DNA from: Streptomyces albofaciens JCM 4342
GTDB taxonomy: Bacteria > Actinomycetota > Actinomycetes > Streptomycetales > Streptomycetaceae
DNA: 64,000 bases
Assembly (NCBI RefSeq): GCF_008634025.1
Contig: NZ_PDCM01000002.1
Location: 1,488,001 to 1,552,000, forward strand
Direction: 5' to 3'
Made by a program: the position numbers and the translations under genes. Below the pieces are notes generated by a model. It ran no database searches. It saw only the letters and a program-made list of their open reading frames with translations, and had not been told where the DNA came from. Positions 12,832 to 64,000 of this stretch are shown in pieces. Numbering within the stretch: position 1 is the stretch's first letter; every line of letters begins with the position of its first letter.

Positions 12832-27759
<14,928 letters not shown>

Positions 27760-48440: not shown

Positions 48441-49883
48441 CTAACCGGCCCGCAGACAATCACGCGATAAACCGTCGCCGCACCCGGCCGGCCCGGCCTC
48501 CTCCCCCGCGTCCAGGTTCAGCCGGGCAGCCAGGTCCGTACGGCGCTGCACGCCCAGCTTCCGGTAGGCGCGGGTCAGGTGCTGCTCCACGGTGCTGATC
48601 GTGATGAACAGCGCCCCGGCTATCTGCCGGTTGGTGTACCCGCGCGCGGCGAGCGTCGCGACGCGCAGTTCCGCGCCGCTCAGCTCGGTGGCCGAACGCC
48701 CCGCCCCGGGCCGCTCGGAGCGCTCGGGCGGGCAGGCGCTCGCCGCGCCGACCGGCGACGCCTTCAGCACGGGCGCCTTGATGCCGCACTCCCGCATCAG
48801 TTGCTGCGCCTTGCGCGCCGCCACCCGGGCCCGGCCGTCCTCGTTCCTGTCCCAATGGCTGTACGACAGTTCCGCCATCGCGTACGCCAGCTCCAGCCGG
48901 TGGCCGCTGCGCTGGAGGATGTCCAGGGACTCGGCGAGGAGCCGCGGGCGGTCCGCGCGGTCGGCCAGCGCCGCCAGCACCCGCAGCGCGACCCCGCGCA
49001 TCCACGGCGGCCGGGTGCCGGTGCGGGCCAGTTCGTCCTCCAGGAGGGACCGGGCGCGCCGGTCGTCGCCCAGGGCGACGTACACCTGCGCGGCGTCGGA
49101 GCGCCACGGCACCAGCGCGGACAGGTCGAGGCGCCAGCGCGCCATCAGGTCCCCGCACCCGTGGAAGTCCTCCAGCGCGGCGTACAAGCGGCCCGCGGCG
49201 AGGTGGTAGTGACCGCGCGCCCAGAGATACAACAGCCCGCCGGGCGTCCGGAACGCCGCGTCGGGCACGGGGATCCTCAGGTGCGCCGCGGCCTCGTCCA
49301 GCCGTCCCGTGGCGGCCTTCGCGTACAGGAGCGCGGCGACCGGGGCGGCGACGGCCGCCCCCCACCCTTCGGGCGGGACGACGGTGAGCGCGGTGTGCGC
49401 CGACTCCTCCGCCGCGGGCAGCTCGCCGAGTCTGATCTCGGTGTACGCCTTGGCCGTGGCGAACAGCGCCTGCCACATCGGCGCCCGCCGCTCGCGCGCC
49501 TCCGCCACGAGGATGTCGCACCAACGGGACGCCTCCGGCAGCCCGTCGGCGACGATGAGCGCCACCAGGGCGGCCAGCCCCGCCGCCGGGGTACGGTCCT
49601 CCGGCCGGGTCTCCTGGAGGATCCGCTCCGCACGGACGATCACGTCCCCGGCCGCGCCCTCGTCCAGCACGGAAGTGATCAGCGCGAGGGCCCGCTGCTG
49701 CGTACCGTGCTCGGCCACCGGCCCGGAGGTCCGGCCACCGGCTCCCGCGCTCCCGTACGCCCCCGACGCCACCCCGTCCCCGTACCGGCCGGCCACCCCG
49801 GGATACCCGTAAGCGAACCAGAGCCGGGCCGACTCCAGCACCCGCCGCTCCCCCGCACCACCGACTTCCCCCTCCACATGCAC
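48441..49883 (-). CDS. LuxR-type regulator, C-terminal part (frame-shifted from 49679-51373)
   Basis: About 480 residues from a possible GTG at 49883. It starts around VHVEGEVGGAGERRVLESARLWFAYGYPG, has a helical repeat region, and ends with a LuxR DNA-binding domain (LSGAELRVATLAARGYTNRQIAGAL, then ISTVEQHLTRAYRKLGVQRR). Alone it would be an unusual regulator; together with the upstream frame it makes a normal ~950-residue LAL protein. A TTA leucine codon at 48468-48470, near the end (GDG-L-SRD), implies bldA dependence. LAL regulators bind direct repeats at promoters of their clusters; complestatin has a LuxR-type regulator too. The exact start is unknown because the break lies in a C-rich low-complexity stretch. 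Confidence 0.8.
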   Translation of the reverse strand: MHVEGEVGGAGERRVLESARLWFAYGYPGVAGRYGDGVASGAYGSAGAGGRTSGPVAEHGTQQRALALITSVLDEGAAGDVIVRAERILQETRPEDRTPAAGLAALVALIVADGLPEASRWCDILVAEARERRAPMWQALFATAKAYTEIRLGELPAAEESAHTALTVVPPEGWGAAVAAPVAALLYAKAATGRLDEAAAHLRIPVPDAAFRTPGGLLYLWARGHYHLAAGRLYAALEDFHGCGDLMARWRLDLSALVPWRSDAAQVYVALGDDRRARSLLEDELARTGTRPPWMRGVALRVLAALADRADRPRLLAESLDILQRSGHRLELAYAMAELSYSHWDRNEDGRARVAARKAQQLMRECGIKAPVLKASPVGAASACPPERSERPGAGRSATELSGAELRVATLAARGYTNRQIAGALFITISTVEQHLTRAYRKLGVQRRTDLAARLNLDAGEEAGPAGCGDGLSRDCLRAG

Positions 49884-51373
49884 CGCACCCCCACCGTGCC
49901 TGCCCCCTCCCCCTCCCGCTCCCTCCCCTTTCCACCCTCCCCCGCCCGAAGCACCTCCAGCGCCTCGTCCGCCCTGCCGAACCACAGCAGATGGCCGATC
50001 AGCGCCTTCATGTCCCGGGGGGTGAGGCGCCCGGCCAGCGCGGCGTCGGTGAGGGCGGGCAGGTGCCGTACGGCGGCGGACGGGTCGACCCGCCACCCGG
50101 CCCGTACCAGCGCGATCCGGACCCTGAGCACCTGCCGCTCGTCCGCGCAGCTGTCCCGGGCCACGCGCAGGCAGTCCAGCGCCCGCCCCACTTCGTTACG
50201 GGCCAGCGCGGCCTCGGCCGCCTCCAGGAGGGCGGGCAGCACCCAGGGGGCGTCCACGTTCTCTGCGGCGACCAGATGGCGGGCCAGTACGGTCGACGGC
50301 GCCCCGTGCTCGTACAGCACCCGGGCGACGCGGGCCTCCAGGCGCGGCGAGCGCGGCGGCTCCACCCGGCGCAGCACCGCCGTCCGCCCGGCCTCGTGAC
50401 GGAACCGGCCGCCGGCGAGCAGCCCCATGTCGTGCAGGGCGCGCAGGCTGCGTTCGCCCGCCGCGCGGGGAGCACCGAGCAGTTCGGCGGGCTCGGCCCG
50501 CCCGGCCCGCGGCCCGAGCACCGCCAGCACCCAGGCGGTGCTGCGGGTGAGGCGGTCGCTGCGGTTCAGGCACAGCGCGACGGCGCGTTCGTACGCCTCA
50601 CCGGGCACCAGCCCGGCGTTCCCGGCGCGATCCGCGTCCGCGTAATCGTCCAGCAGCGCCCGCACCAGCAGCGGGCTGCCGCCGCTCAGCCGGTGGAATT
50701 CCGATACGGGCGGCGCCGAACGCCGCCCTTTCCGCCCGTCGGCCAGCATGGCGGCGATACCGTCCCGCGGCAGCGCACCGACATGCAGGAAACGGCATAC
50801 CGGCCGCCGCAGCAATTCCCGCCGCGTCCGGCTGTCGTCCCACTCCGAACCGCTGCTTTCCCCGAGGACCACCAGAATCCTGCTGACATCCAGCCGTCGC
50901 ACGACATACAGCAGACATTCCATGGAATGGACATCGGCCAGCTGCACGTCGTCGACGCACACCACGAGCGGCCGTTTCCTGGCCCGGGCGAAGAGGATTC
51001 CGCACATCCGCGGAAAGACGTCCGCGACCACTTCCGCGGGCACCGCGCCGTCCGCGCCCCGCACCGGCGCGCCGACGGTGAGCGGCGACGGCAGCGGCCA
51101 CACCGCCGCCTCCCCGTCCGCGCCGGACGGGGAGGCGGTCCGCAGCAACTGCTCCACCACGCGCAGCGGCACGTCCCGGTCCGCCGCGGTCGCCGTCGCC
51201 TGCAACCACACCGCGCCGGTCGGCGCCACCCGCTCCCGGAACGCGCGCAGCAACGCCGTCTTCCCGGCCCCCACCGCACCGCTGACCAACACCGCCCCGC
51301 CGCGCCCGGCCGCACAGGCGTCGAGCATGCCCTCCAGGACGGAGAGCTCCGTGTCCCGTTCCACCAACTTCAT
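49679..51373 (-). CDS. LAL-type LuxR regulator, N-terminal ATPase part (frame broken)
   Basis: The frame opens at ATG 51373 (GGGGGTGAAG upstream) and encodes the N-terminal AAA-type ATPase of the large LuxR family: Walker A SGAVGAGKTALL near residue 31-42, Walker B PLVVCVDDVQLAD near 135-147. Family-like sequence continues to EALEVLRAGEG at ~49940; the remaining ~85 codons down to 49679 are out of frame (GKGREREGEGAG...). The natural continuation lies in the other frame from ~49883. Recovering one frame needs one extra base, or loss of two, within 49883-49945, where plus-strand C5 runs cluster. The cause may be a sequencing error, a real inactivating mutation or slippage. It is probably the pathway regulator of the adjacent cluster. 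Confidence 0.8.
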   Translation of the reverse strand: MKLVERDTELSVLEGMLDACAAGRGGAVLVSGAVGAGKTALLRAFRERVAPTGAVWLQATATAADRDVPLRVVEQLLRTASPSGADGEAAVWPLPSPLTVGAPVRGADGAVPAEVVADVFPRMCGILFARARKRPLVVCVDDVQLADVHSMECLLYVVRRLDVSRILVVLGESSGSEWDDSRTRRELLRRPVCRFLHVGALPRDGIAAMLADGRKGRRSAPPVSEFHRLSGGSPLLVRALLDDYADADRAGNAGLVPGEAYERAVALCLNRSDRLTRSTAWVLAVLGPRAGRAEPAELLGAPRAAGERSLRALHDMGLLAGGRFRHEAGRTAVLRRVEPPRSPRLEARVARVLYEHGAPSTVLARHLVAAENVDAPWVLPALLEAAEAALARNEVGRALDCLRVARDSCADERQVLRVRIALVRAGWRVDPSAAVRHLPALTDAALAGRLTPRDMKALIGHLLWFGRADEALEVLRAGEGGKGREREGEGAGTVGVRCMWRGKSVVRGSGGCWSRPGSGSLTGIPGWPAGTGTGWRRGRTGAREPVAGPPGRWPSTVRSSGPSR

Positions 51374-52683: not shown

Positions 52684-55554
52684 TCACTCGTCGTCATCCC
52701 CTTCATCGAGGTCGAAGTCGAAGGCCAGCTGGCCCGACAAAGCGTCGTCCGGCGCGGCTGCAGCCTGGGGCTCCGTCGGGTCCAGGGCCTCCTCGATCTC
52801 GTGAGGCAGAGCGTAGTCGTCCGCGAGTCGCGCAAGATGGAGGATCAAGGGCACAGCCAACCCCTCGCGACCAGCACGGTAGTCCTCGCTGAAACGCTGC
52901 TGGTGGACAAATGCGGCCCATGCCTCCGCGTCGTCACCGGGCTGAAGGCACGCGACGGTCAGTTCGAGGAGGTCCGGGTTCCAGGCATTCGCCGTCGGCC
53001 GGTAGGCGTTGTTGCCCGAGGCGTTGGTGTGCGGAGTGAGTTTGGCATCGTCGTTGGTGAGGTTCGGCTGCGAGCCGGACTTGCCGGTCGTGCTGTAGAA
53101 GACGCGGCTCGAGTCGCCCCGCGCCCCGGGCCGCCACAGCCCCATCGCGATGCCTCCACGCTGCTGGCCCTCCAGCTCGCGAGAGAGTTCCTCCGCCTCG
53201 GCCCAGCACTGTGCCGTCTCGTCCCGACTGCCGTCGGCGATCCGGACGACACGAAGCTGCTTGCCGTACAGACCGATCCGCTGAACGGGACCTCCGTCGA
53301 GGCCGAGCCTGTCCCGTTCCAGACCGTCGTTCCTCAGCCACGACCAGCGCTTCCGGACGTCCTGAGCGTGGACCAGAACGAGCGTCGGGGTGCTGCGCAG
53401 TTGTGCGAGGGTCTTCTTGACGAAGGCCGCCGTGAGGGCCGACTGCTCCGCACTGTTCTTCTTGCCTTCGACCCGTCCCGTCAACGACTTGAGGAGTTCG
53501 GGGTACGGCACCCATTCGTGCATGTCGGCCGACTTGCCCAGCACGCATTTCGCGCCCGGCCGGATGAGCACCGCAATGGGCGTGAACTGCTGCTTGCCCG
53601 TGGGCCCGTCAAGGCGACGTTCCACGAGGTGGAAGGCCACCTGGTTCAGGTTCGCGGGGATGAGCGTGTCGCCGAGCGTGTGCTGGGGCACCAGCCGCAT
53701 ACCGGTCTGGCGCAGGCCGTCCGACCAGGCCGCGGCGGCACGCAGACCTGCATCGGCGAGAGCCTCCTCCGTCTCTGCATCCGGGTCCGGGGGACGGATG
53801 AACTGGGTCACCAGGCCTGCGTCCGCGCAGCCGAGGCGGATCGCGTGCTTGGGGTCGGTTCGTCGCTTGGCGTTGCGGAAGGCGTCCTGCCCGTCAAGCT
53901 CCACGAAGGCCAGCTGCAGCCCGGGGACAGCTTCCCGCAGGGCGTTCATGGCCCGCGCGACGCTGGTACGGCGCTCCTCGATGGCCTTGTCGTGTTCCTG
54001 CCCCCGCTTCGGCACGCTGTCGCCTCCCAGCGGTGCACCGAGAGCGCCCAGGGGCCGCGCGTGCAGCCGGACGGTCAGCTCCTCCGCCTCCCACACCCAG
54101 GTATCAGGGCCCTGCACACGCCGGTGCCCGGCCAGTCCCAGCCCCGTCTCCGTCGCGGCGATCATCTGATCGCGGATGGTGTCGTTCTGGTGGAGCACGA
54201 CCGCGGTGAGGTGCTCCCCTTCGAGTGCTTCGGCCAGGCGTGCTCGCAGAACCTGAGCGTTGTGGGCCGCATTTAGCTCACGCTCACCCAGGATGACCGC
54301 GAGGTCTTCGGGATCCTTCTTTTCCAGGTTCTTGGGAATGGAGGGCAGCTTCTTGAGCTGCTTCTTGGGCGGCCGCGCGTACGGACTGCGCTCCAGCTTC
54401 GGAACGGGCACGAACTCCGGAGCGATCGCCTGCTCCGCCCACTCGATCAGCCGTCGGCGTTCACTGGGCATCAGTCCGGTGCCGATCGTGTGCCTGCCCA
54501 TGGCCGCCTGGTGCCCGATCGCGATCCGGATGCTGTCCCGGCCGTGGATCCAGTGGTCGGCCTCCTTCACCAGCCGATCCGGTGACGGCAGCGCGTCGAG
54601 TGCGCTGATCCGGGCGAGCATTCCTTCTGCTCCGCCCTGACGCCAGTTGGTGGTGCCGTTCTTCCACTCCAGCATCGCGACCGCGAAACGCTGCGGCTGC
54701 GGGCCGTCGTGGACGAGGGAGTCGTCCGGGAGCAGGTACGCGGACACGCCCTTGCCGTACGGCATGTAGACCTTGCCGGTGACGAACCGACGCACGCCGG
54801 CGGCCATGTGGACGCGCGGGACGGGTGAGAAGGGAATGGTGCGCACGGTGATGCGGAGGGTCGCCGCGTAATACGCCGGCTTGCCCTCGCCGCCACCGCG
54901 CCGCCTGGGTACGTACTCGATCACGTTCGACATCAACTCGGCGCCCCCGCTTCCGTGCCCCCTGGCGCCCGTGCGGCCGGCCACCTGCCGAAACGACAGC
55001 TGCTGCCCGTGGAGTTCGTACGGTGCCTGGCGCGCGATCCGTTCGGCGAGGACCTCGGGGAGGAGCCGGTACACGTGGGGCGCGGGCAGAGCGGTTCCTC
55101 CGGGCGACACCTTCTGTTCGAGGAGATCGATCCTGCCGGGCCGCCAGCTGAGCGCCGCGGTGTCGAGGTCACGGAAGCAGGTCATCAGCAGAGCCGTGGT
55201 CTCGGGATCATCGGCATCGCGCGCGAGGCTCTTGAGCCAAGTGGCGATGTAGAGGTTCGTCACCGCCATCGGGTACGCGTCCTGGCAGTACAACCAGGGG
55301 TTCTCCGAGCCGAACCGTGCCGTGGAGTCGACCGTGACGATGTCCGGCGCGGTGGCGCACATCAGCTGGTTGAACGCCGCTGTGGGCACGCAGCGCCGTC
55401 GCTCGACCTGTCCCTCGGTCTTTCCGCCGTGGTAGAGGCGCAGGAGTGGTTCCTCCCAGTGGGCGGGCAGGGAGAGCGTGTGCATCGGGACGACGAAGGG
55501 TCCCTGTGCCGGTTCGGGCAGGTACGCCGCCAGGCGGTTGTGCTGGTAGGCCAT
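52684..55554 (-). CDS. pPIWI-RE protein (prokaryotic PIWI-like, RNase H-fold)
   Basis: 956 residues from ATG 55554 (GAGGAG ~10 bases upstream). N-terminal ~1-400 is the family-specific X region; a MID-like segment around 400-600 ends with DPKHAIRLGCADAGLVTQFI near residue 572, containing the conserved arginine; the C-terminal PIWI/RNase H-like part (~640-956) ends with RFSEDYRAGREGLAVPLILHLARLADDY near 890, whose arrangement matches the conserved glutamate and LPLxLH region. pPIWI-RE proteins occur with a DinG-like helicase and an endonuclease and are proposed to recognise RNA-DNA hybrids or R-loops of invading DNA. I could not assign an Argonaute-type DEDX catalytic tetrad. It is the last gene of the operon, 78 bases after the helicase. 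Confidence 0.85.
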   Translation of the reverse strand: MAYQHNRLAAYLPEPAQGPFVVPMHTLSLPAHWEEPLLRLYHGGKTEGQVERRRCVPTAAFNQLMCATAPDIVTVDSTARFGSENPWLYCQDAYPMAVTNLYIATWLKSLARDADDPETTALLMTCFRDLDTAALSWRPGRIDLLEQKVSPGGTALPAPHVYRLLPEVLAERIARQAPYELHGQQLSFRQVAGRTGARGHGSGGAELMSNVIEYVPRRRGGGEGKPAYYAATLRITVRTIPFSPVPRVHMAAGVRRFVTGKVYMPYGKGVSAYLLPDDSLVHDGPQPQRFAVAMLEWKNGTTNWRQGGAEGMLARISALDALPSPDRLVKEADHWIHGRDSIRIAIGHQAAMGRHTIGTGLMPSERRRLIEWAEQAIAPEFVPVPKLERSPYARPPKKQLKKLPSIPKNLEKKDPEDLAVILGERELNAAHNAQVLRARLAEALEGEHLTAVVLHQNDTIRDQMIAATETGLGLAGHRRVQGPDTWVWEAEELTVRLHARPLGALGAPLGGDSVPKRGQEHDKAIEERRTSVARAMNALREAVPGLQLAFVELDGQDAFRNAKRRTDPKHAIRLGCADAGLVTQFIRPPDPDAETEEALADAGLRAAAAWSDGLRQTGMRLVPQHTLGDTLIPANLNQVAFHLVERRLDGPTGKQQFTPIAVLIRPGAKCVLGKSADMHEWVPYPELLKSLTGRVEGKKNSAEQSALTAAFVKKTLAQLRSTPTLVLVHAQDVRKRWSWLRNDGLERDRLGLDGGPVQRIGLYGKQLRVVRIADGSRDETAQCWAEAEELSRELEGQQRGGIAMGLWRPGARGDSSRVFYSTTGKSGSQPNLTNDDAKLTPHTNASGNNAYRPTANAWNPDLLELTVACLQPGDDAEAWAAFVHQQRFSEDYRAGREGLAVPLILHLARLADDYALPHEIEEALDPTEPQAAAAPDDALSGQLAFDFDLDEGDDDE

Positions 55555-55632
55555 GGTGCCGGTTCTCCTCGGGAAGGGCGTGAAGTGTTCGGACGCGACG
55601 CGGACACGTCGCGGGTGCTGTGGCGGATGCCC

Positions 55633-58600
55633 TCAGCCCATGTCCACCAGAGCGCGGTAGAGCGGTTCGTACAGCTCATGGACGAGGGACTTGTCGATGG
55701 GGGCGGGGTCCCGCTCCACCGCGTTCCCGTCCTCGAAGTAGGGGGCGAGCACCTCACGCATACTCGCCAGCAGGCTGGTGTCGGGGGTGTCCGCGTCCTG
55801 GAATCCGGCTTCTCGGGGGGAGAAGGCCGCGTCGACGAAGACCACCCGGGCTGGCACGCCGCCGCGCACCAGGCGGCCGATGACCTGCCACATGACGACG
55901 AGCTGGTCCCAGGTGAACGCCGCCTTCTCCTCGTCCCGCAGACTGGACCAGGCCAGCCGCCGGGTGAGGAAGCGGTTCCACTGACGGCGTGCGCGGCTGC
56001 GGAACGCCACGGCCGCCTGGTCGGGTGTGGCGGCGGCGAGCGCGTTCTGCCGGAAGGATCCGTCCACATCGCGGAGTTGGCGTACGGCCCAGTCGTTGAT
56101 GGACTGGATGGCGAGTGAGATGTCGTCGGGCCGAGGGTGGGGGCGTGCCAGGAAGTAGACCGTGCCGATGGCCGCCTTGCCACCGCGCAACACGATGTTG
56201 TGTCCTCGCTCCACGGCGAGCAGCGGCGCAACGAGAAGGTCGCCACCGACCGAGGGGAAGGCCTTCACGTCACCGCGCGGCAGGGTTCGTGCGGCGACGT
56301 CCTCCGGCAGCCGGGTCCAGGCAGTGTCGGAGTCCGCGTCGTCGGAAACGAGTCGGGTGACGCGGCCGTTCCACTCGGGGATCTGGTTGAGGTACTCGGC
56401 GGCCCGGCGTGCCTCGTCGTAACTGCCGACGAGCAGCAGGATGCGACGGCGGTCCGGATCGTCGATCTCCTTCAGCTCGGCGTCCAGCATGCTCACGGCG
56501 TCGGGGAGGCTCCGGTCGGGCACCGCGAGCTGGTGCAGCATGTGGAGGAGGGCCTGCGACCGTTCTTCGGGATCGCAGCCGGACAAGCGCAGCGGTTTGG
56601 GCCGGTCGGTTCCGGGCCAGTACAGGAATTCTTTGCGGAACTCGCTGCCCAGCACGGCTTCGACTTCCTCGTCGTGAGGACGCAGTACGGCACCGACCTC
56701 GGCGTGCACGTGGTACCTACTCGACGTGCCCGCCCAGCTCGTCGCGGACATGAGCAGGACGTGCGGGCCCGGACGGCCATCCACGGCGCACACGTCGCCG
56801 AGCCGCATGAGCAGTTCGCGGCCCACGCCGTTGCAGTGGAAGAAGCGGAGTTCACCGCTGCGGTCGCCGTCGCGCTCACGGTCGTCGTGGCGGAACTGAA
56901 AGCCGAGCACGTTGCCCATGGGGGACTCGGGGATGACCGCCTCGTAGTCCTTGGGAGGCCTGCGAGAGAGCACATTCGAGGCGCTCTCGAGGTTGAGAGC
57001 GGCCTCGACGCGCGGCCACAGCGTGGTCATGAAGTCGAGACGGCTGTGCAGGGCGGAGAGGAGCAGGGTAAACTCGAAGCGACGGGCCTGGAGGTCGGCG
57101 TCCGCGAGCACCGTGCTGTCATCTCCGACAATGCCGGTGAGCGTGTCGCGCAGCCTCTCCCGCGTCCTTGCTCCCTGGAGCGCGTGCAGGAGTTCCAGGG
57201 TGAGGTGGACGAAGGTGTTCACCAAGGGTGTCACCTCGTCTTCGTCAAGCGTGCTCTGCTGCTCGTGCAGCGGGTCGTCGCGGAACCGGCCGAGCGCAGC
57301 GTCCAGTGTCCGGGCCGCCTCAGGCGGGCGTTCGCCCTCCTTCCGCCCCGGAAACCAGCTGTCCAGCAGCAGGTTGTGGAGGGTGAAGGCGCTGAAGTAG
57401 TCGACGCTGATCCACCGCCTGAGCTTGTCGTCTTTGACGAGCAGGGCGAAGAGGCGGTCGGTGGCGGCGCTCACCGTGTTGACCGCGTTGGTCCAGTCGT
57501 CGACGTCACGGGCGGACAACTGGAGCCGGCCGTCCCGGGCCATCTGCTGGAACTTGTGGACGGCGACCTCGTCGAACCAGGAGTTCGGGGCCTTGCCCAC
57601 CAGGGTGCTGGCCGGCGCGAAGGCCGTGTCGAGCTGCATCTGCACCCGGTCCGCCTCATCGACGATGATCAGGTCGCTGAGCCGGCACGCGAGTTCGAGG
57701 TACCGGAGCTGTTCCTGGTGCTGGTGCAGCGGGACGGAACTGTGCACCAGACCGGCCGGGGTGGCAACCCACAGCTGTGCGTCGACCAGATCACGAGCCC
57801 CGCGGTGGCGCGGACAGCGGTTCCACAACGGGCACAGTCTCCGCTGCGGCTTCGGGCCGTGTGCGTCGCGCTGCGTGCCGTTCTCCTCGTCGAGAAGGGG
57901 ATCACCGTCTGTGGTCTCCTGCTCGGGGACGGTGTACAGCGTGATGCAGGGTGCCTCACGGACGCCGAGCGGGCGGCGGGCTTCCAGCCCGCGGAGCACG
58001 TCCACGGGGCAGGCGCTGCTGAGGTAGGCGAAGCCCACGTGGTCGTGCCCGAGCATGGTGGCGGCGCCAGCCGTGGCGGTACGGCGGTGCAGCCGGTTGA
58101 TGTTGCGCTCCCTGGTGGAGTGCCCGAGGATCGGTGCCGCCCGTACACCGAGCCGGTCGAACTGCTCCACCACGGCGAGCGTCTCGGCCACGTCCCCGAC
58201 GACGATGGTAACCCGGCGGGGGGTCTGGGTCACGAGGTAGTAGGTCAGGATGTCCCGGAGGGTGGACTTGCCGGCTCCTACCATCCCGACGAGGTGCAGC
58301 AGCCGGTCGATCCTCAGCCGTCCCTGTTCGGTGAAGCGGCCGAGTTCCGTGTCGCGCACGAGCAGCTTCACCCGCCGCAGCCGCGCGGCCCAGCCGTTAC
58401 GCGGCCCCTCCGGCACCGTCGCCTCGACGGCGTCCATCTCGTCGGCCGCCTTTTCGAGCTCTTCCCAGGTGACGTCGACGGGCTCTCCGTGCCCGGCCGG
58501 TGGTGCGTCGAGCGCGTGGGCGCGCGGCAGGGTGTCCGACAGCAGTTCCTCGTCGAACACCACGGAGTGGGTACGGTCCTGCACCCGGAAAGTGTGCTCT

Positions 58601-59070
58601 CCCTCCTCGGCGAACGGAATGGCCCGCGTCGCGAACCGCGGAGGGGTGCTGAGCAGTTCTTTGAAGATCTCGAAACGGCGTGCGGCTCGCGACGTCTCGC
58701 GACGGCGCGGCACGGAGGCAGGTCCCTCGACGTCGTATCCGCGCAGGTGCTGGGGGACCTTCAGATAGTCGGCCAGCGCCTCCGACCAGGCGTGCCGTCG
58801 CCGCAGATCCCACAGATAGTGACGGGCGCGCAGAACGCGCAGCCGCTGTTCGTCGGTGCGGAGGTCTCCGAACACCTCGCTGTACGGGTAACCACCCAGC
58901 AACGGCCAGACATCGGCGGCCGTGCGGGTGGGCGTCACGTCCCGCAGGAGGTACAGGCCCAGTTCGACGTCGAGAAGGTCGCCGGGGCGGAAGCTGCCTA
59001 GGTTCGCCGGCCACACCTCGGCGAGCTGCTGTGGTGAGCAGCGCCGGTGCCATCCCCTACGGTCACGCAC
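55633..59070 (-). CDS. DinG/XPD-like superfamily 2 helicase of the pPIWI-RE island
   Basis: 1145 residues. Walker A is GMVGAGKST near 258-266, Walker B IIVDEADRV near 466, motif III-like LLMSATS, and motif VI QVIGRLVRGG near 1059. Between Walker A and B, four cysteines (SACPVD, APCITL, and CPLWNRC) are placed as in the Fe-S cluster of XPD/DinG helicases. The first ~240 residues are a family-specific N-terminal region. The likely role is unwinding R-loops or duplex DNA for the pPIWI-RE and nuclease partners. GTG 59070 is chosen: GAAGGGGGA lies five bases upstream and the start overlaps the preceding stop by eight bases; a longer frame to 59187 runs inside that gene. Confidence 0.87.
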   Translation of the reverse strand: MRDRRGWHRRCSPQQLAEVWPANLGSFRPGDLLDVELGLYLLRDVTPTRTAADVWPLLGGYPYSEVFGDLRTDEQRLRVLRARHYLWDLRRRHAWSEALADYLKVPQHLRGYDVEGPASVPRRRETSRAARRFEIFKELLSTPPRFATRAIPFAEEGEHTFRVQDRTHSVVFDEELLSDTLPRAHALDAPPAGHGEPVDVTWEELEKAADEMDAVEATVPEGPRNGWAARLRRVKLLVRDTELGRFTEQGRLRIDRLLHLVGMVGAGKSTLRDILTYYLVTQTPRRVTIVVGDVAETLAVVEQFDRLGVRAAPILGHSTRERNINRLHRRTATAGAATMLGHDHVGFAYLSSACPVDVLRGLEARRPLGVREAPCITLYTVPEQETTDGDPLLDEENGTQRDAHGPKPQRRLCPLWNRCPRHRGARDLVDAQLWVATPAGLVHSSVPLHQHQEQLRYLELACRLSDLIIVDEADRVQMQLDTAFAPASTLVGKAPNSWFDEVAVHKFQQMARDGRLQLSARDVDDWTNAVNTVSAATDRLFALLVKDDKLRRWISVDYFSAFTLHNLLLDSWFPGRKEGERPPEAARTLDAALGRFRDDPLHEQQSTLDEDEVTPLVNTFVHLTLELLHALQGARTRERLRDTLTGIVGDDSTVLADADLQARRFEFTLLLSALHSRLDFMTTLWPRVEAALNLESASNVLSRRPPKDYEAVIPESPMGNVLGFQFRHDDRERDGDRSGELRFFHCNGVGRELLMRLGDVCAVDGRPGPHVLLMSATSWAGTSSRYHVHAEVGAVLRPHDEEVEAVLGSEFRKEFLYWPGTDRPKPLRLSGCDPEERSQALLHMLHQLAVPDRSLPDAVSMLDAELKEIDDPDRRRILLLVGSYDEARRAAEYLNQIPEWNGRVTRLVSDDADSDTAWTRLPEDVAARTLPRGDVKAFPSVGGDLLVAPLLAVERGHNIVLRGGKAAIGTVYFLARPHPRPDDISLAIQSINDWAVRQLRDVDGSFRQNALAAATPDQAAVAFRSRARRQWNRFLTRRLAWSSLRDEEKAAFTWDQLVVMWQVIGRLVRGGVPARVVFVDAAFSPREAGFQDADTPDTSLLASMREVLAPYFEDGNAVERDPAPIDKSLVHELYEPLYRALVDMG

Positions 59071-60238
59071 GGAATCCCCCTTCGGTACGCGGGTCCCCCG
59101 CCTTGTGGCGCGGGGTGGAGATCTCATCGGCGACCAGCCGCAGGAAGGTCTGGTCGTCCAGCAGGGTGACCCGGCCGGCCAGATCATCCGGCACGTTTCG
59201 GCGGAACTGCCGCCCGTACGCCTCGTTGTCGCGGAAGCGGTAGCGGGGCACGACGAGGAACGCCCTGTCGTAGGGCGGCTCGTTCCGGAACGGCGTGAGG
59301 GAGCGCGCCAGGAGAACGGGGTTCACCCGGTCCTTGACGTCCACCGCCCAGTGCCGTCGCCCCGACAGGGGGACACGCAGGTCGTACGCGTCGTAGTTGG
59401 GCCACATCTCGGCGGTGATTCCGAACTTCTTCTCCAGGGCGGCTTGCAGATCGGTCTCCGCGAGCCCGGGGCTGGTGATGAACATCCGCAGAGGGCGGCT
59501 GAGCTGGAAGACCCCGCCTTTGTCGGCAGGGAGCGGGGTGCCTTCGTCAGAGGTGCCGTCGCAGCGGCACCGGTCCAGTTCGCACCGGTGGCCGCCGTGC
59601 AGCAGCGGCACCATCAGGCAGCGACAGCGAGCGCACTGCCGGTACGTGCCGCCCCGCAGGTAGGAAGCGGGCACAGGCTCGTAGCAGCGCTTGATCACGT
59701 CGTGCAGCAGCATCCCGCAGTCCGGATCGCCGCCGAGCAGTGCCAGCTCGGCGCCGGTCAGCACGGGCCTGGACGTGAGCAGGGCCCGGAACGCGGTATA
59801 AGCCTGCGGTGCCTTGGCTGCACGGCACACGGCGAGCGCTTCCCGGATGCGTTCGTTCTCGAAGAGCTCGGCGGCCGGGTCGGCCGCGTTCACCTCCCAC
59901 TCCAGGCACAGCTGGTGCGGCAGCCGGGTCTCCGTATCAACGAGCAGGGCCGTGCCCGGAAGGGTTTCGGACGACAGTTCCAACGGCCACTCGGTCAGAG
60001 GCCGTTCACAAGCCCAGCGGACCATCTGCGGCACACTGCCTGGCGGTTCCTCGCCCCGGCTCAGGCAGTGCAGAACGAGGCGGTTGTACGCGTTCTGCAC
60101 CTTCGCCGGATAGACCGGGTTGGGCACGGTTTTCTGCCGGGACAGGCACGCCAGGGCGCTGGCGATCTGGCGAAGCAGCCCCTCGTCCGTGCCGACGACG
60201 TCCTCGGGACCTGCGTCCCTCATATCGGTCGCGGTCAC
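59063..60238 (-). CDS. Zinc-ribbon plus PD-(D/E)XK endonuclease of the pPIWI-RE island
   Basis: 391 residues from GTG 60238, which overlaps the upstream stop as GTGA. An N-terminal helical domain (~1-190) is followed by a Cys-rich zinc-binding stretch (CARCRC near 198, CELDRCRC near 220). The C-terminal part has YDAYDLRVP near 285 and WAVDVKDRVNP near 298, the D...DxK active site of restriction-endonuclease-fold nucleases, then FLVVPRYRF. This matches the described third gene of pPIWI-RE islands (domain Z plus REase). The probable role is cleavage of DNA exposed by the helicase and pPIWI-RE. The order and overlaps imply equal co-translation with the helicase. Confidence 0.82.
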   Translation of the reverse strand: MTATDMRDAGPEDVVGTDEGLLRQIASALACLSRQKTVPNPVYPAKVQNAYNRLVLHCLSRGEEPPGSVPQMVRWACERPLTEWPLELSSETLPGTALLVDTETRLPHQLCLEWEVNAADPAAELFENERIREALAVCRAAKAPQAYTAFRALLTSRPVLTGAELALLGGDPDCGMLLHDVIKRCYEPVPASYLRGGTYRQCARCRCLMVPLLHGGHRCELDRCRCDGTSDEGTPLPADKGGVFQLSRPLRMFITSPGLAETDLQAALEKKFGITAEMWPNYDAYDLRVPLSGRRHWAVDVKDRVNPVLLARSLTPFRNEPPYDRAFLVVPRYRFRDNEAYGRQFRRNVPDDLAGRVTLLDDQTFLRLVADEISTPRHKAGDPRTEGGFRA

Positions 60239-61875
60239 ACCTCCCCCTCTCCCGCGGCGGTGCCGTCGGTCGCGGCGCTCGGGCACCACCGGGACACCGG
60301 GCAGGACCGACAATGCGGCCCGGGGCGGGCGTCCCATGTTTCGTCCTCCCGCCACGGACCGGCGTACCGCCGCAGTACCGACAGTGCCTTTTGCTGCCGG
60401 CCGGGGTCCGTCGGGTCAATCACGTGCGGATCGGAACCGTCCGGCCGGAGGATCTCAACCTCGACGCGCGAGCCGTCGGGATCGCCCCCCAGCGCACCCT
60501 GTGCCAGGAGTGTGACCGCCAAGGCAAGTTGGGGGTAGGTGTCGAGAAGGTCCTCGTCGTGGCGGCGCCGCTTCCGTGTCGTCTTGAGCTCCCGCCACAC
60601 CCATGAGCCGTCCTCCTGGAAGAGCAGGTCGGGCTTGGCGATGACGACGGCCTGCGCCGCGGTGTCGTGGACGACTCGGAGGGCTTCGGGCTCGACCCGC
60701 TGGATGAGGGCGGCATCCTGGAAGGGACAGGCATCGACGTGGTGGAGCAGCATGTCCCGGCCGGTCGCAGCGTCCTCGTCGGAGACCCGCCAGCGTCCCT
60801 CTGTCCAGTTCTCGCCCTCCGGGGGCATGTCCCCGGCCGCGCACGGCAGCCGTCCCGGGCGTCGGTGCAGCTTCTCGATCCAGCCGTGCACCGCCTGACC
60901 GAGCCTGGCCGCGCTGCCGTACTCGTCGGACTTGGGCAGGTGCAGGGCACGGAGGAACCCCTGCGCGGGGCAAGCCGCGTGATAGCGCAGATCGCTGACC
61001 GACACTTTCCTCAGCGGTGCCACCCGCGAGGAGAGTCCGAGGACGCCGGGCGTGCGCGGCACGGCCTTGCAGCCCGTGAACTGCTTGCAGTCGACGCAGG
61101 ACGAGCCGGGTATCGGCCTGCCGCCCGCCACGACACGGGCCACGTGCGCGTGCCCGTGCTCGGCGTAGTACCCCTCGGCCTCCTCGGCCGTCCCGTCGAA
61201 CTGCACGCGAGGCCGTCCGTCGGCGAGCCCGACTTCGACGACACGCACCCGCTCGGGCTGGACGGCGGGTCCGTACGGCTCAAACGCACGCGACCACTTC
61301 CGGGGCCAGGCCGCCTGGTGCCCGTGAACGGCCACGTACACGGCGATCGCGATCTCGCCGGGCTCGGAGTCCTTGGACTCACCGTGCCGCAGCCGCCTGT
61401 ACTCGCGCAGTCGTCCGCCGGCCGACTCGTACCTGCGCCACCAGGCGTACATCTCCCAGAACTTGCCGTTCTCCCGCTGGGCCACCCAGTACGGGCGGAC
61501 CGGATGCAGCCGCTGCTCACCGTCGCCGGCGCACACTCCCACGTACGTCCGGAGGGCGTGCTCGGCGTACGTCAGGTGACCGGGATGGAGGGCGGGGGTG
61601 CGGGAGCGCAGCCCCGCCTGGGCCTGATCGGGAGTCTCACCGTGGAACTCGACCCGGTCGACGGCGTCCATCACCGGCCCGAGGGTGAACGTCTCAAGCT
61701 CCGGCTTCGGCAGCCGGAGACTCCGGGCCGGCCAGAGCCCGGGCCGGGCCTTGGCCGCGGCATGCGAGGGGCAGGTGTGCTCCTCATTCCCGCCTGTACC
61801 GGGCCCCACACGAACGAGGTCGTCGTTTCCGGTCAGCCAGTGCGGCTGGTGCCATGCCGTCAGGTCGTGGCTCAT
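60235..61875 (-). CDS. Cas4/RecB-like PD-(D/E)XK nuclease with Fe-S cysteines
   Basis: 546 residues from ATG 61875 (GGGGGAGG upstream). The C-terminal half is a RecB/Cas4-type nuclease: YHAACPAQGFLRAL near 300 with the first cysteine, AARLGQAVHGWIEKLH, KPDLLF near 413, WRELKTT near 425 (catalytic D...ExK), and a final cysteine group CRSCPVSRWCP near 517-528, the usual place of the other three Fe-S ligands. The N-terminal half is unfamiliar and has another Cys triplet (CVDCKQFTGC near 259-268). It is the first gene of the minus-strand operon. It is an addition to the classical three-gene island; it could trim or resect DNA ends opened by the helicase. Confidence 0.8.
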   Translation of the reverse strand: MSHDLTAWHQPHWLTGNDDLVRVGPGTGGNEEHTCPSHAAAKARPGLWPARSLRLPKPELETFTLGPVMDAVDRVEFHGETPDQAQAGLRSRTPALHPGHLTYAEHALRTYVGVCAGDGEQRLHPVRPYWVAQRENGKFWEMYAWWRRYESAGGRLREYRRLRHGESKDSEPGEIAIAVYVAVHGHQAAWPRKWSRAFEPYGPAVQPERVRVVEVGLADGRPRVQFDGTAEEAEGYYAEHGHAHVARVVAGGRPIPGSSCVDCKQFTGCKAVPRTPGVLGLSSRVAPLRKVSVSDLRYHAACPAQGFLRALHLPKSDEYGSAARLGQAVHGWIEKLHRRPGRLPCAAGDMPPEGENWTEGRWRVSDEDAATGRDMLLHHVDACPFQDAALIQRVEPEALRVVHDTAAQAVVIAKPDLLFQEDGSWVWRELKTTRKRRRHDEDLLDTYPQLALAVTLLAQGALGGDPDGSRVEVEILRPDGSDPHVIDPTDPGRQQKALSVLRRYAGPWREDETWDARPGPHCRSCPVSRWCPSAATDGTAAGEGEV

Positions 61876-62010
61876 TGCCTCCCCCTTGTCTCGGAACAGA
61901 CGTCACCCTCCGGTCCAGCCGGGTGCACCGTCACCTCCGACCGTAGCAGAAACCTTGGAACTCTTTGGAAGTTCTTGGCTCAGATTGGTTACTGAGCTAG
62001 GCTGCCCCGC
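61876..62010. promoter_or_regulatory. Divergent promoter region of the island with repeated TTGGAA half-sites
   Basis: The 135-bp gap between the divergent genes carries TTGGAACTCTTTGGAAGTTC (direct TTGGAA repeats overlapping an inverted GAACT/AGTTC) and an inverted GCTCAG-N8-CTGAGC. On the plus strand TTGGCT (61975-61980), 17 bases, TAGGCT (61998-62003) forms a good -35/-10 pair ending seven bases before ATG 62011. That gene has no ribosome site, so its message is probably leaderless. Confidence 0.6.
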
Positions 62011-62886
62011 ATGGCGGCATCACTGGAGGAACTCGAGCAGCGCCTGTCCCACCTGCGCACCGAGCTGCGCGGTGCCGTGCGTGCACGGGACAAGGCCGAA
62101 GCCGCGCGCATCCGTCGTGCACTGCGCGAGGCCGAGGCCGCATGGGAGCACGCCCTGGAGTCCGAGGCGGAGCCGGACGGCGAGGCCCTTCCGGTCGAGC
62201 CCCCGGCCCCGCGAGCGTCGGCGACCGCAAGCGCACCACGCCGCAAGGAGCGCCCGACGCACGGCTCCATCCCGATCCGCGAACAAGTCCACCAGGCACT
62301 CACCCTGCTGGGCGCCCCTGCCTCCCCGAAACTCATCTCCTCCACGTACGAGGCGTTTTTCACCGAGTCACTGGTCGCCACCAAACTCGCGTCCCTCCGT
62401 CGCGACGAGGAGCGATCCTTCACGGCTCAGGGTTATGCCCGCCCGTACTACATCTGCGCAGCACTGACCCACGACCGCCTGGTCCCCGCACGCGGGCTCC
62501 TGGCCCTGTCCACTTGGCCCGTGGAGCGACGGATCATAGGCCCGCTCAGCCCGCGCACCGACTTCCTCACCCACGCGACGGGAACCGCCGAGCAGATCCA
62601 GCGACTCACCGCCGCGGGACATCCAGTCCCCGACGCGGCCTGGCGGGTGCTGCGCCGTTTCGCCCTCACGATCCCGGGCGCCTACGACGCCGCGGCCCCG
62701 GAACCCGACCCTGCCCGCGTGATCGCGGCCGCGCACGCCGAAGCGGCCGTCCACCAGCAGGAGGACGACCAGCAGCGGCAAGCTGCCGCACAGCGCGCCC
62801 GTACCCAACTCGGTGATGTACAGCAGCTGTTCGGTGCGGCACCGATGCGTGACGCACTGCGCGACGCGAGTGAATCCCTGCCCTGA
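62011..62886 (+). CDS. Coiled-coil and winged-helix-like protein of unknown function
   Basis: 291 residues; not recognised as a named family. Residues ~1-55 are charged and heptad-like (LEELEQRLSHLRTELRGAVRARDKAEAARIRRALREAE), a likely coiled coil. A Pro/Ala/Arg linker follows to ~85. Residues ~88-150 (REQVHQALTLLGAPASPKLISSTY...ATKLASLRRDEER) look like a winged-helix DNA-binding domain. The Gln/Ala-rich C-terminus may be another helix. It is divergent from the nuclease/helicase/pPIWI-RE operon across a repeat-bearing promoter and is followed after 80 bases by another Cas4-like gene. It may be a DNA-binding component or the regulator of the island. Confidence 0.7.
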   Translation: MAASLEELEQRLSHLRTELRGAVRARDKAEAARIRRALREAEAAWEHALESEAEPDGEALPVEPPAPRASATASAPRRKERPTHGSIPIREQVHQALTLLGAPASPKLISSTYEAFFTESLVATKLASLRRDEERSFTAQGYARPYYICAALTHDRLVPARGLLALSTWPVERRIIGPLSPRTDFLTHATGTAEQIQRLTAAGHPVPDAAWRVLRRFALTIPGAYDAAAPEPDPARVIAAAHAEAAVHQQEDDQQRQAAAQRARTQLGDVQQLFGAAPMRDALRDASESLP

Positions 62887-62966
62887 CCCCCCTTCCCGAC
62901 GGCGATGACGTCAGGCGCCTCGCACGCCGGTGATCTCCCGAAGACACGTTCCCCGAAGTAGAGACG

Positions 62967-64000
62967 ATGCCCTCGCAGCAGTCCGAACATCCCGACGACA
63001 GACTCGCACGGCTGCGCGGACCGCAGCCCCCTCAGCCGTACACCGCCCGCAAGATCACCGCCCTGACCGCCAACCCGGCCTGCGCCCGCCGGGCCGTGCT
63101 CGACGCCGCCGGGGTGGACAAGGCGCTGCTCGCCCAGCAGGTCGGATACGAGCCGCGCTTCGGCCAGTCACCCTTCGCCCTCGCCCGCGAACAGGCCTTT
63201 CACAGCCTCGTCAAGTGGGGCAGCTACGCCGAGCTCATCCGGCTGCTGCGCGAGCAGCTCTCCGTCCCCGTGGCGGAGGCCCATGTCACCGACCTCAACG
63301 AGGTAGGGGGCAACACGGCCCTGCACCTGCGCGAGCGGGAGACCCGCCGCCTTATCGCGCATGTGGCCTCCGGCCAGGACATACGGCTCATCCTCGACCG
63401 CCCCGTACTCACCCTCCAAGTCGCCGGTCGCACGGCGTACCTGGAGCCGGATGCGCTCACCCATCGCATCGAGGGTAAGTTCCACGTCGTCCTGATCCGC
63501 TCGTTCGCGGCGATCGACGGCCAGGCCAATCCGACCGCGGTCGCCGAGGCGGCCAAGCAGGCCGCGGTGTACGTCCTCGCGCTGCACCGCGCCTTCGAGA
63601 CGGCCAGTCTGCCCACCGAGCAGATATCCCACGAGTTCCTGCTCGTCTGTCCCAAAGACTTCTCCAACCGCCCCTACGGGCGCCTGATCGACCTTCGGCA
63701 GGAACTCGACGCCCTCCAATTCCAGCTCTCGCGGCTGCGGCGCGCAGAGGACCTCGCGGCCCAACTGCCCGGGACCGCCACCCTGGACACGGCCCGAAGC
63801 GCGGGCGAACTCTCCTCCTCCATAGAGGCCTTGGACGCGTCGTACACGCCTTCCTGTCTGTCCTTCTGCGAAATGGCGCGCTACTGCCGCGACGAGGCCG
63901 ACGGATGCGCCTCGCCGGCCCGCCTGGGCAGCGGCGTGCGCAACGACCTGCCGGGCATCGACTCCACCCGCACCGCGCTCGACTACCTGGACGGCGTCGC
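62967..64000 (+). CDS. Cas4-like PD-(D/E)XK family protein with altered active site (partial)
   Basis: Starts at ATG 62967 and runs past the window edge after 344 codons. An early NPACARRAVLDAAGVD (cysteine near 38) resembles the first Fe-S ligand region. The nuclease core would be LEPDALTHRI near 158 followed by FHVVLIRSFAAIDG near 172 and PTAVAEAAKQAAVYVLALHR: the usual motif is EPD ... VxEIK, and here the E and K positions read L and R. A cysteine cluster CLSFCEMARYCRDEADGC near 295-314 fits a Cas4-type Fe-S site. A structural or DNA-binding role is more likely than cleavage. It probably forms an operon with the 62011 gene. Confidence 0.65.
   Translation, partial: MPSQQSEHPDDRLARLRGPQPPQPYTARKITALTANPACARRAVLDAAGVDKALLAQQVGYEPRFGQSPFALAREQAFHSLVKWGSYAELIRLLREQLSVPVAEAHVTDLNEVGGNTALHLRERETRRLIAHVASGQDIRLILDRPVLTLQVAGRTAYLEPDALTHRIEGKFHVVLIRSFAAIDGQANPTAVAEAAKQAAVYVLALHRAFETASLPTEQISHEFLLVCPKDFSNRPYGRLIDLRQELDALQFQLSRLRRAEDLAAQLPGTATLDTARSAGELSSSIEALDASYTPSCLSFCEMARYCRDEADGCASPARLGSGVRNDLPGIDSTRTALDYLDGV

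Follow-up and report, generated by a model that had tools for sequence, protein, structure and literature searches.

The closest described relatives of the locus considered here are the three-gene pPIWI-RE islands, for which it was proposed that the PIWI-RE protein recognises RNA-DNA hybrids and that the accompanying DinG helicase unwinds them (Burroughs et al. 2013, PMC3702460). The main text of that study emphasises that no methylase gene accompanies the islands, makes no mention of Cas4, RecB or PDDEXK, and carries the words 'protein kinase' solely in the title of a reference. RNA-guided DNA cleavage is reported for PsPIWI-RE of Pseudomonas stutzeri in passages of PMC10991935, and a further paper, PMC7641849, matched the literature search through the term 'Piwi-related' alone and was found to be irrelevant. 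Action on RNA-DNA hybrids has been predicted for pPIWI-RE proteins since 2013, and the central question is how they are gated and with which partners they work. The present analysis concerns a pPIWI-RE locus at the end of a 64,000-nucleotide stretch of Streptomyces albofaciens JCM 4342 (hereafter the window; bases 1,488,001-1,552,000 of contig 2, NZ_PDCM01000002.1, in a genome of 9.25 Mb and two contigs), the closest named relatives of which, in a scan of named genomes, belong to Streptomyces.

The locus was found to combine the four-gene Ppr defence core, already known from the PADLOC database, with a divergent four-gene operon, p5-p8, of nuclease-helicase type. The divergent position is occupied by a gene for a Ser/Thr kinase in most other Ppr operons of the Streptomycetaceae, whereas the window's clade lacks the kinase and carries there a module whose nuclease-fold subunit, p6, has lost catalytic residues. 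On balance it is considered somewhat probable that the eight genes form one unit, in which the nuclease-dead module has replaced the kinase partner. A first-pass annotation of the window had proposed a six-gene pPIWI-RE system; neither the kinase nor the loss of the nuclease residues figured in it, and the observation is larger than it described.

Organisation of the locus and its Ppr core

The eight genes lie in two divergent operons, listed here in window coordinates (those of p7 and p8 are window-equivalent and lie outside the window):

52684-55554, minus strand: PprPIWI, 956 aa, with X, MID and RNase H domains (PF13111, E 3.2e-87; PF18157, E 5.1e-30; PF13032, E 1.1e-66; PADLOC PprPIWI, E 5.6e-166)
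55633-59070, minus strand: PprDinG helicase, 1145 aa, GTG start, with Walker A and B motifs and four Cys (pPIWI_RE_Z, PF18155, E 1.1e-42; PADLOC PprDinG, E 1e-252)
59063-60238, minus strand: PprRE, 391 aa, GTG start, with a Y domain (PF18156, E 7e-39), a REase domain (PF18154, E 1.7e-33), zinc-ribbon-like Cys pairs and a D...DVK motif
60235-61875, minus strand: PprPDDEXK, 546 aa, head of the Ppr operon, a Cas4-like PD-(D/E)XK nuclease (PDDEXK_1, PF12705, E 3.3e-23; PADLOC PprPDDEXK, E 1.8e-102)
61876-62010, no strand: divergent control region of 135 bp between PprPDDEXK and p5
61955-61988, plus strand: iteron-like TTGG array, four units at an exact spacing of 10 bp
62011-62886, plus strand: p5, 291 aa, head of the divergent operon, from a family of unknown fold
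62967-64085, plus strand, cut at the window end (64000): p6, 372 aa in full, Cas4/RecB-fold, catalytic triad lost
64082-65593, plus strand, outside the window: p7, exonuclease-like domain and UPF1-type 1B barrel
65590-66954, plus strand, outside the window: p8, superfamily 1B (SF1B) motor with AAA_11/AAA_12

The four minus-strand genes stand as the first-pass annotation had placed them, with the same coordinates, the 135-bp region, overlaps of 8 bp (helicase and REase genes) and 4 bp (REase gene and PprPDDEXK), and one short gap of 78 bp between the helicase and PIWI genes; the GTG starts of PprDinG and PprRE were picked from the gene overlaps. What had been called a 'divergent pair' is the part of a four-gene operon left by the window end, beyond which p5-p8 extends for 2,954 bp with overlaps of 4 bp each at p6/p7 and p7/p8, so that the supposed six-gene system becomes a layout of four plus four.

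Profile searches with the pPIWI_RE X, Y, Z, REase and RNaseH families and with the PADLOC models matched far above chance, in agreement with the pPIWI-RE identity given at first pass. PF13032 matched in 111 of 394 Streptomycetaceae genomes, of which 93 loci were read (82 in L087-L168, the 10 loci in which p5-p8 adjoins Ppr, and L081), the rest being mostly fragments or weaker matches. A Ppr-type helicase lies by the PIWI gene in 52 of the 82 loci, accompanied by the REase in all 52 and by the Cas4-like gene in 51, L167 being a Ppr-type locus devoid of the latter. In the alignment of PprPDDEXK the catalytic D, E and K, together with one N-terminal and three C-terminal Cys, are identical in 63/63 rows. 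This co-occurrence and conservation place the Cas4-like gene, by all sequence indications, in the four-gene Ppr operon, as the first-pass annotation had held; its membership is already catalogued and is not new, a PprPDDEXK model being present in the PADLOC-DB of 2023, while the name PprPDDEXK was not found in the open-access papers searched. Conservation extends to the other core proteins, with the Walker B Asp and Glu of PprDinG present in 65/65 rows and each of its four Cys in 64/65, the four Cys of PprRE in 53/53 rows (the D, D and K of its D...DVK motif being kept less fully, in 40, 42 and 44 of these rows respectively), and D748, E779 and E864 of PprPIWI in 63/63 rows (in its own numbering, not mapped onto D525/D610 of PsPIWI-RE). 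A plasmid search with PprPDDEXK returned 2 records, one of them covering 80%.

The remaining 30 of the 82 loci constitute a second pPIWI_RE class of the same family, in 29 of which a Cas4-like match is absent (a few fetched flanks being short). L149, of this class, has the Cas4-like gene in two pieces and a divergent helicase, and a kinase was not found there, the extension L271 included. L122 carries a triad of REase, large protein and PIWI, with an HTH_3 gene upstream, next to the REase, and with the Cas4-like gene absent; its large protein has no Pfam match and is called a helicase by position alone. L122:1416-10431 and L087:1170-10108 serve as examples of the class, and the gene of L087 at the HTH_3 position looks alike.

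The kinase slot

Of 51 other Ppr operons with a Cas4-like gene, 50 have a kinase gene that runs divergently from PprPDDEXK and is no more than 4 kb away, the distance being less than 700 bp in 45 and about 2.2 kb in 5. The count derives from 50/53 by removal of L149 and of L081, for which the fetch ended at the gene, and L167 stands outside it; the kinase apparently missing at L081 (genome G187) was an artefact of that fetch, since the extended sequence contains it. The kinase of L093 (L093:6566-8050, minus strand) matches Pfam Pkinase at E 2.9e-47, L089-L152 having the corresponding slot, and the VAVK Lys, the HRD Asp and the DFG Asp are present in 51/51 aligned rows, one of which is the query. 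The exception is L147, whose Ppr is the closest to that of the window; as judged by eye, its slot is taken by an N6-methylase-like gene, and a kinase match lies approximately 9 kb away.

Neither the kinase nor the N6-methylase was detected at E 1e-10 in any of 27 sequences of the clade in which p5-p8 adjoins Ppr (window and duplicates included), whereas other Ppr loci, taken as a control set, gave the kinase in 33/33 and the N6-methylase in 27/33 at the same threshold. By gene-cluster count, an N6-methylase-like gene occurs in the kinase stretch of 22/52 Ppr loci. An NB-ARC/TPR (STAND-like) protein of 924 aa (L110:11480-14254, minus strand) and its relatives lie near the kinase in 16/52 Ppr loci. 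Neither the kinase slot nor the occupation of it by a nuclease-dead p5-p8 was encountered among the matches listed in searches of the open-access literature.

The p5-p8 module and the loss of active-site residues in p6

The first gene of the module, p5, matches nothing in Pfam, PADLOC or NCBIfam; 2545 homologues were recognised among 7995 scored candidates, and p5 precedes p6-p7-p8 in 18/18 module copies of the 394-genome Streptomycetaceae set. The DNA binding assigned to p5 at first pass was rejected as a demonstrated property, helix-turn-helix (HTH) type matches being found in 0 of 40 family members; a UVR motif (E 2.3e-6) and TetR_C_13 (E 0.063) were matched in one member each. A plasmid search with p5 returned 9 records, none covering 80%. 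For p6, a structure model gives the Cas4/RecB PD-(D/E)XK fold (3 matches at E 0.001 or below); PDDEXK_1 is matched by 10 of 63 members of its family (best E 7.7e-4), the window's own p6 not being among them. C39, C297, C301 and C307 of p6 are invariant in 63 rows, with a spacing that we take to be of the iron-sulphur type. The structure model of p7 shows an exonuclease-like domain joined to a UPF1-type 1B barrel, and 49 members of its family gave four weak Pfam matches, one member each. PADLOC models match none of p5, p6 and p7, and sequence-profile searches of the PDB with the three proteins gave no useful match, p6 retrieving a ribosomal protein at E 0.37. The genes are consistently separate, p7 and p8 being joined in one open reading frame (ORF) in 0/116 loci and p6 and p7 in 0/118.

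Relatives of p7 are present in 387/394 Streptomycetaceae genomes. In 21 core-type loci p6, p7 and p8 were found in 21/21 and p5 in 0/21. A class-wide sample gave a match in 50/296 genomes, 27 of them from the window's own genus. Among the best 80 of 276 p5 loci of named genomes, 57 come from other actinobacteria (Nonomuraea, Micromonospora, Nocardia, Amycolatopsis and others); all of p5-p8 were present in 54 of these 57, and their fetched flanks, some of which are short, showed no Ppr gene in any case. p5-p8 is therefore, as judged by its distribution, an old and autonomous actinobacterial operon, which usually occurs away from pPIWI-RE.

Within the 394 genomes there are 18 close copies of p5-p8 (p7 identity at least 52%), 10 of which, the window included, divergently adjoin Ppr. 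In the same set of 80 named loci, Ppr adjoins p5-p8 in 16 of 21 Streptomycetaceae loci with a visible upstream side, L184 and L229 lying outside this count as their contigs end there. L184:67-1347 encodes a p5 relative, p6-p8 not being detected in the 10 kb downstream. Merging of duplicates leaves 20 distinct Ppr-linked copies. All 10 Ppr operons among the loci read with a PIWI at least 65% identical to that of the window carry p5-p8, the nearest other being L147 at 52%. The left flanks beyond the PIWI gene fall into 17 groups and the right flanks beyond p8 into 9, while the eight genes between them stay the same; counting only the 10 copies for which 1.46-2.35 kb of left flank could be compared gives 9 groups. 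Since the same genes recur in different chromosomal settings, they apparently travel together rather than merely share a position. In L137 (G173), a kinase-type Ppr operon has a core-like p8-p7-p6 copy (14671-18925), its p6 triad intact, at a distance of about 4 kb, a possible second and independent neighbourhood.

The active-site motif of p6 reads EPD...EIKSF in relatives and EPD...LIRSF (VVLIRSF) in the window, where the Asp is kept, Glu has become Leu and Lys has become Arg. The D/E/K triad is incomplete in all 26 Ppr-linked p6 rows, representing the 20 distinct copies (DLR 19, QER 5, DVR 1, HER 1), and intact in 20/20 readable core p6 rows and 61/71 other readable rows, L199 and L268 having no letters at the triad. 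For p6, 8 pairs of linked copies gave ratios of nonsynonymous to synonymous substitution rates (dN/dS) of 0.14-0.27, a range like that of p5, p7 and p8. These low ratios and the invariant Cys indicate that p6 is under purifying selection despite its lost triad, and has been maintained as a protein while the catalytic residues were lost. The loss supports a changed role for p6, without proving a tie to Ppr; as statistically independent evidence of partnership it was rejected, the linked copies being one clade with too few independent pairs. At L080 (9629-10944, G187), p8 matches in two frames and the p6 triad reads D, A, R, and this copy may be decaying.

Further along the chromosome, p8 is followed by genes for a SNF2-like helicase, DUF4391, type III Mod and type III Res (window-equivalent 67234-76316; L007:7234-16316), a right flank common to the window, L071/L178, L172, L176 and L177. 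On the other side, window positions 6220-41897 (minus strand) hold three giant ORFs of 2191, 4975 and 3119 aa, whose N-termini presumably resemble peptide-synthetase condensation domains; to their right follow two ORFs, one transporter-like and one DAHP-synthase-like. At 48441-51373 (minus strand), two overlapping ORFs in different frames jointly resemble what we take to be one LuxR-type large ATPase regulator, a gene that may be frameshifted.

Rival readings and described systems

Gene content, operon structure, the varied flanks, the absence of the kinase and the loss of p6 residues under purifying selection can be read from the genomes compared; as regards complex formation, substrate, licensing and roles in defence, the following arrangement is proposed. 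PprPIWI would bind an RNA-DNA hybrid on invading DNA, PprDinG would unwind it, and PprRE and PprPDDEXK would cut. The products of p6, p7 and p8 may constitute a split Dna2/Sen1-like complex that works as translocase and adaptor with its nuclease dead. Its substrates would be RNA-DNA hybrids or single strands of the invading DNA, onto which it loads or which it remodels. As the module stands in the kinase slot and has its control region in common with the Ppr operon, it would most likely do the job that the kinase has elsewhere, licensing or activating the Ppr core. A wider generalisation, offered tentatively as possible though short of probable, is that Ppr is a partner-gated defence core for RNA-DNA hybrids, which a dedicated kinase licenses in most Streptomycetaceae and which in the window's clade has captured a copy of the old p5-p8 operon, its nuclease turned off, as a Sen1/Dna2-like hybrid-loading motor for the Argonaute-like effector.

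Several observations weigh against a functional union of the eight genes. The 20 linked copies form a single clade in the p7+p8 tree (for which every third row from outside the Streptomycetaceae was taken), so that a single event may lie behind the association, and likewise behind the nuclease loss. The same clade contains three copies without Ppr as a neighbour, namely L077, L080 and L176, the last with 2.5 kb upstream in which no Ppr was seen before the contig end. Degenerate p6 occurs away from Ppr in ten rows (DAR 2, EER 2, QER 2, DLR 1, DVR 1, DVK 1, SEK 1), and a dead p6 therefore does not require Ppr. For the named loci, the comparison of left flanks rests on 341-587 bp only. Finally, profile-profile comparison does not connect p6 with PprPDDEXK (hhalign probability 0.5%, E 0.12), and the idea that the two are close relatives was rejected.

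Much of this would also be expected if p5-p8 were a separate module for defence or repair that came to lie next to a single Ppr operon and has since been carried in a defence island without functional contact. The 8 of 18 p5-p8 copies without an adjacent Ppr, the 57 loci of other actinobacteria without a detected Ppr gene in their fetched flanks, the single clade of linked copies and the type III restriction-modification/SNF2 island after p8 in the window's genome all agree with such hitch-hiking. It accounts less readily for a block that stays the same among 17 groups of left flanks and 9 of right flanks, for a divergent control region common to both operons, and for the absence of both kinase and methylase from the linked sequences, and is judged rather unlikely, although it is the best surviving of the alternatives. 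The partnership of the divergent genes, held likely at first pass, is upheld in that one clade holds the eight-gene block in many settings, and weakened in that these genes are half of an operon usually found without pPIWI-RE.

The shared 135-bp region raises the prospect that the connection is one of regulation, the p5 product or another factor acting on the TTGG array to control both operons, with the p6-p8 enzymes irrelevant to Ppr. Three perfect TTGG units were found upstream of p5 in 14/18 module copies, irrespective of linkage to Ppr, as well as in 12/12 further named copies, whereas the best score in 52 other Ppr upstream regions was 9 of 12 letters; random windows from the same loci scored at least 11 in 8/3000 cases, some perhaps on the array itself. 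The array-bearing copies are related and do not amount to independent conservation. From this pattern, the array was brought in by this lineage of the module, accompanies its p5 rather than other Ppr operons, and the Ppr of the clade now shares its control region. Regulation alone is nevertheless improbable, given the lack of an HTH-type profile match for p5, the purifying selection on p6, p7 and p8, and the scores of 9 or less in 21/24 other actinobacterial p5 regions; as most of these p5 genes lack the array upstream, p5 need not bind it. Least credible is that p6 still cuts through a variant active site and adds nuclease activity to Ppr, for although Lys to Arg is conservative, the first Asp is kept in 20/26 linked rows (DLR 19, DVR 1) and the fold and Cys are retained, two of the three catalytic positions are changed in every linked row, and variously so (DLR, DVR, QER, HER).

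If the module has indeed taken the place of the kinase, the near-constant kinase of other Ppr operons and the nuclease-dead helicase module of this clade provide two natural designs for comparing the activation of an Argonaute-like core. The locus also exemplifies how a defence system may acquire as its neighbour a conserved, housekeeping-like nuclease-helicase operon whose cutting subunit has been silenced.

The window resembles the pPIWI-RE triad described in the main text of PMC3702460 in its PIWI-RE, its DinG-like helicase, its REase with Y domain and zinc ribbon, the relative order of these genes and their close spacing. The REase gene comes first in the triad, whereas in the window the Cas4-like gene precedes it, so that the operon is the four-gene Ppr form and not the plain triad; the divergent four-gene module on a common control region is a further difference. 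PsPIWI-RE, in passages of PMC10991935, is likewise encoded next to genes for a DinG helicase and for a nuclease, in a three-gene setting with a ciprofloxacin phenotype as against the four plus four genes of the window. With the Ppr set of PADLOC-DB 2.0.0, all four minus-strand proteins match the PprPIWI, PprDinG, PprRE and PprPDDEXK models, whereas p5, p6 and p7 match none; this is a comparison by models and not by system definition, and does not cover kinase membership. ACE1, an Argonaute-associated Cas4-family protein (PDB 9iab, 9iac), is likened to the locus by PDB title alone. In relation to Cas4/RecB nucleases, p6 of the window's clade has the fold without the nuclease residues, and p7 adds an exonuclease-like domain. 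The nearest parallels of the module as a whole are Dna2 and the Sen1/Ighmbp2-type SF1B helicases, with the difference that nuclease, 1B barrel and SF1B motor are united in one polypeptide in the Dna2-like enzymes and are split over three genes in p6-p8.

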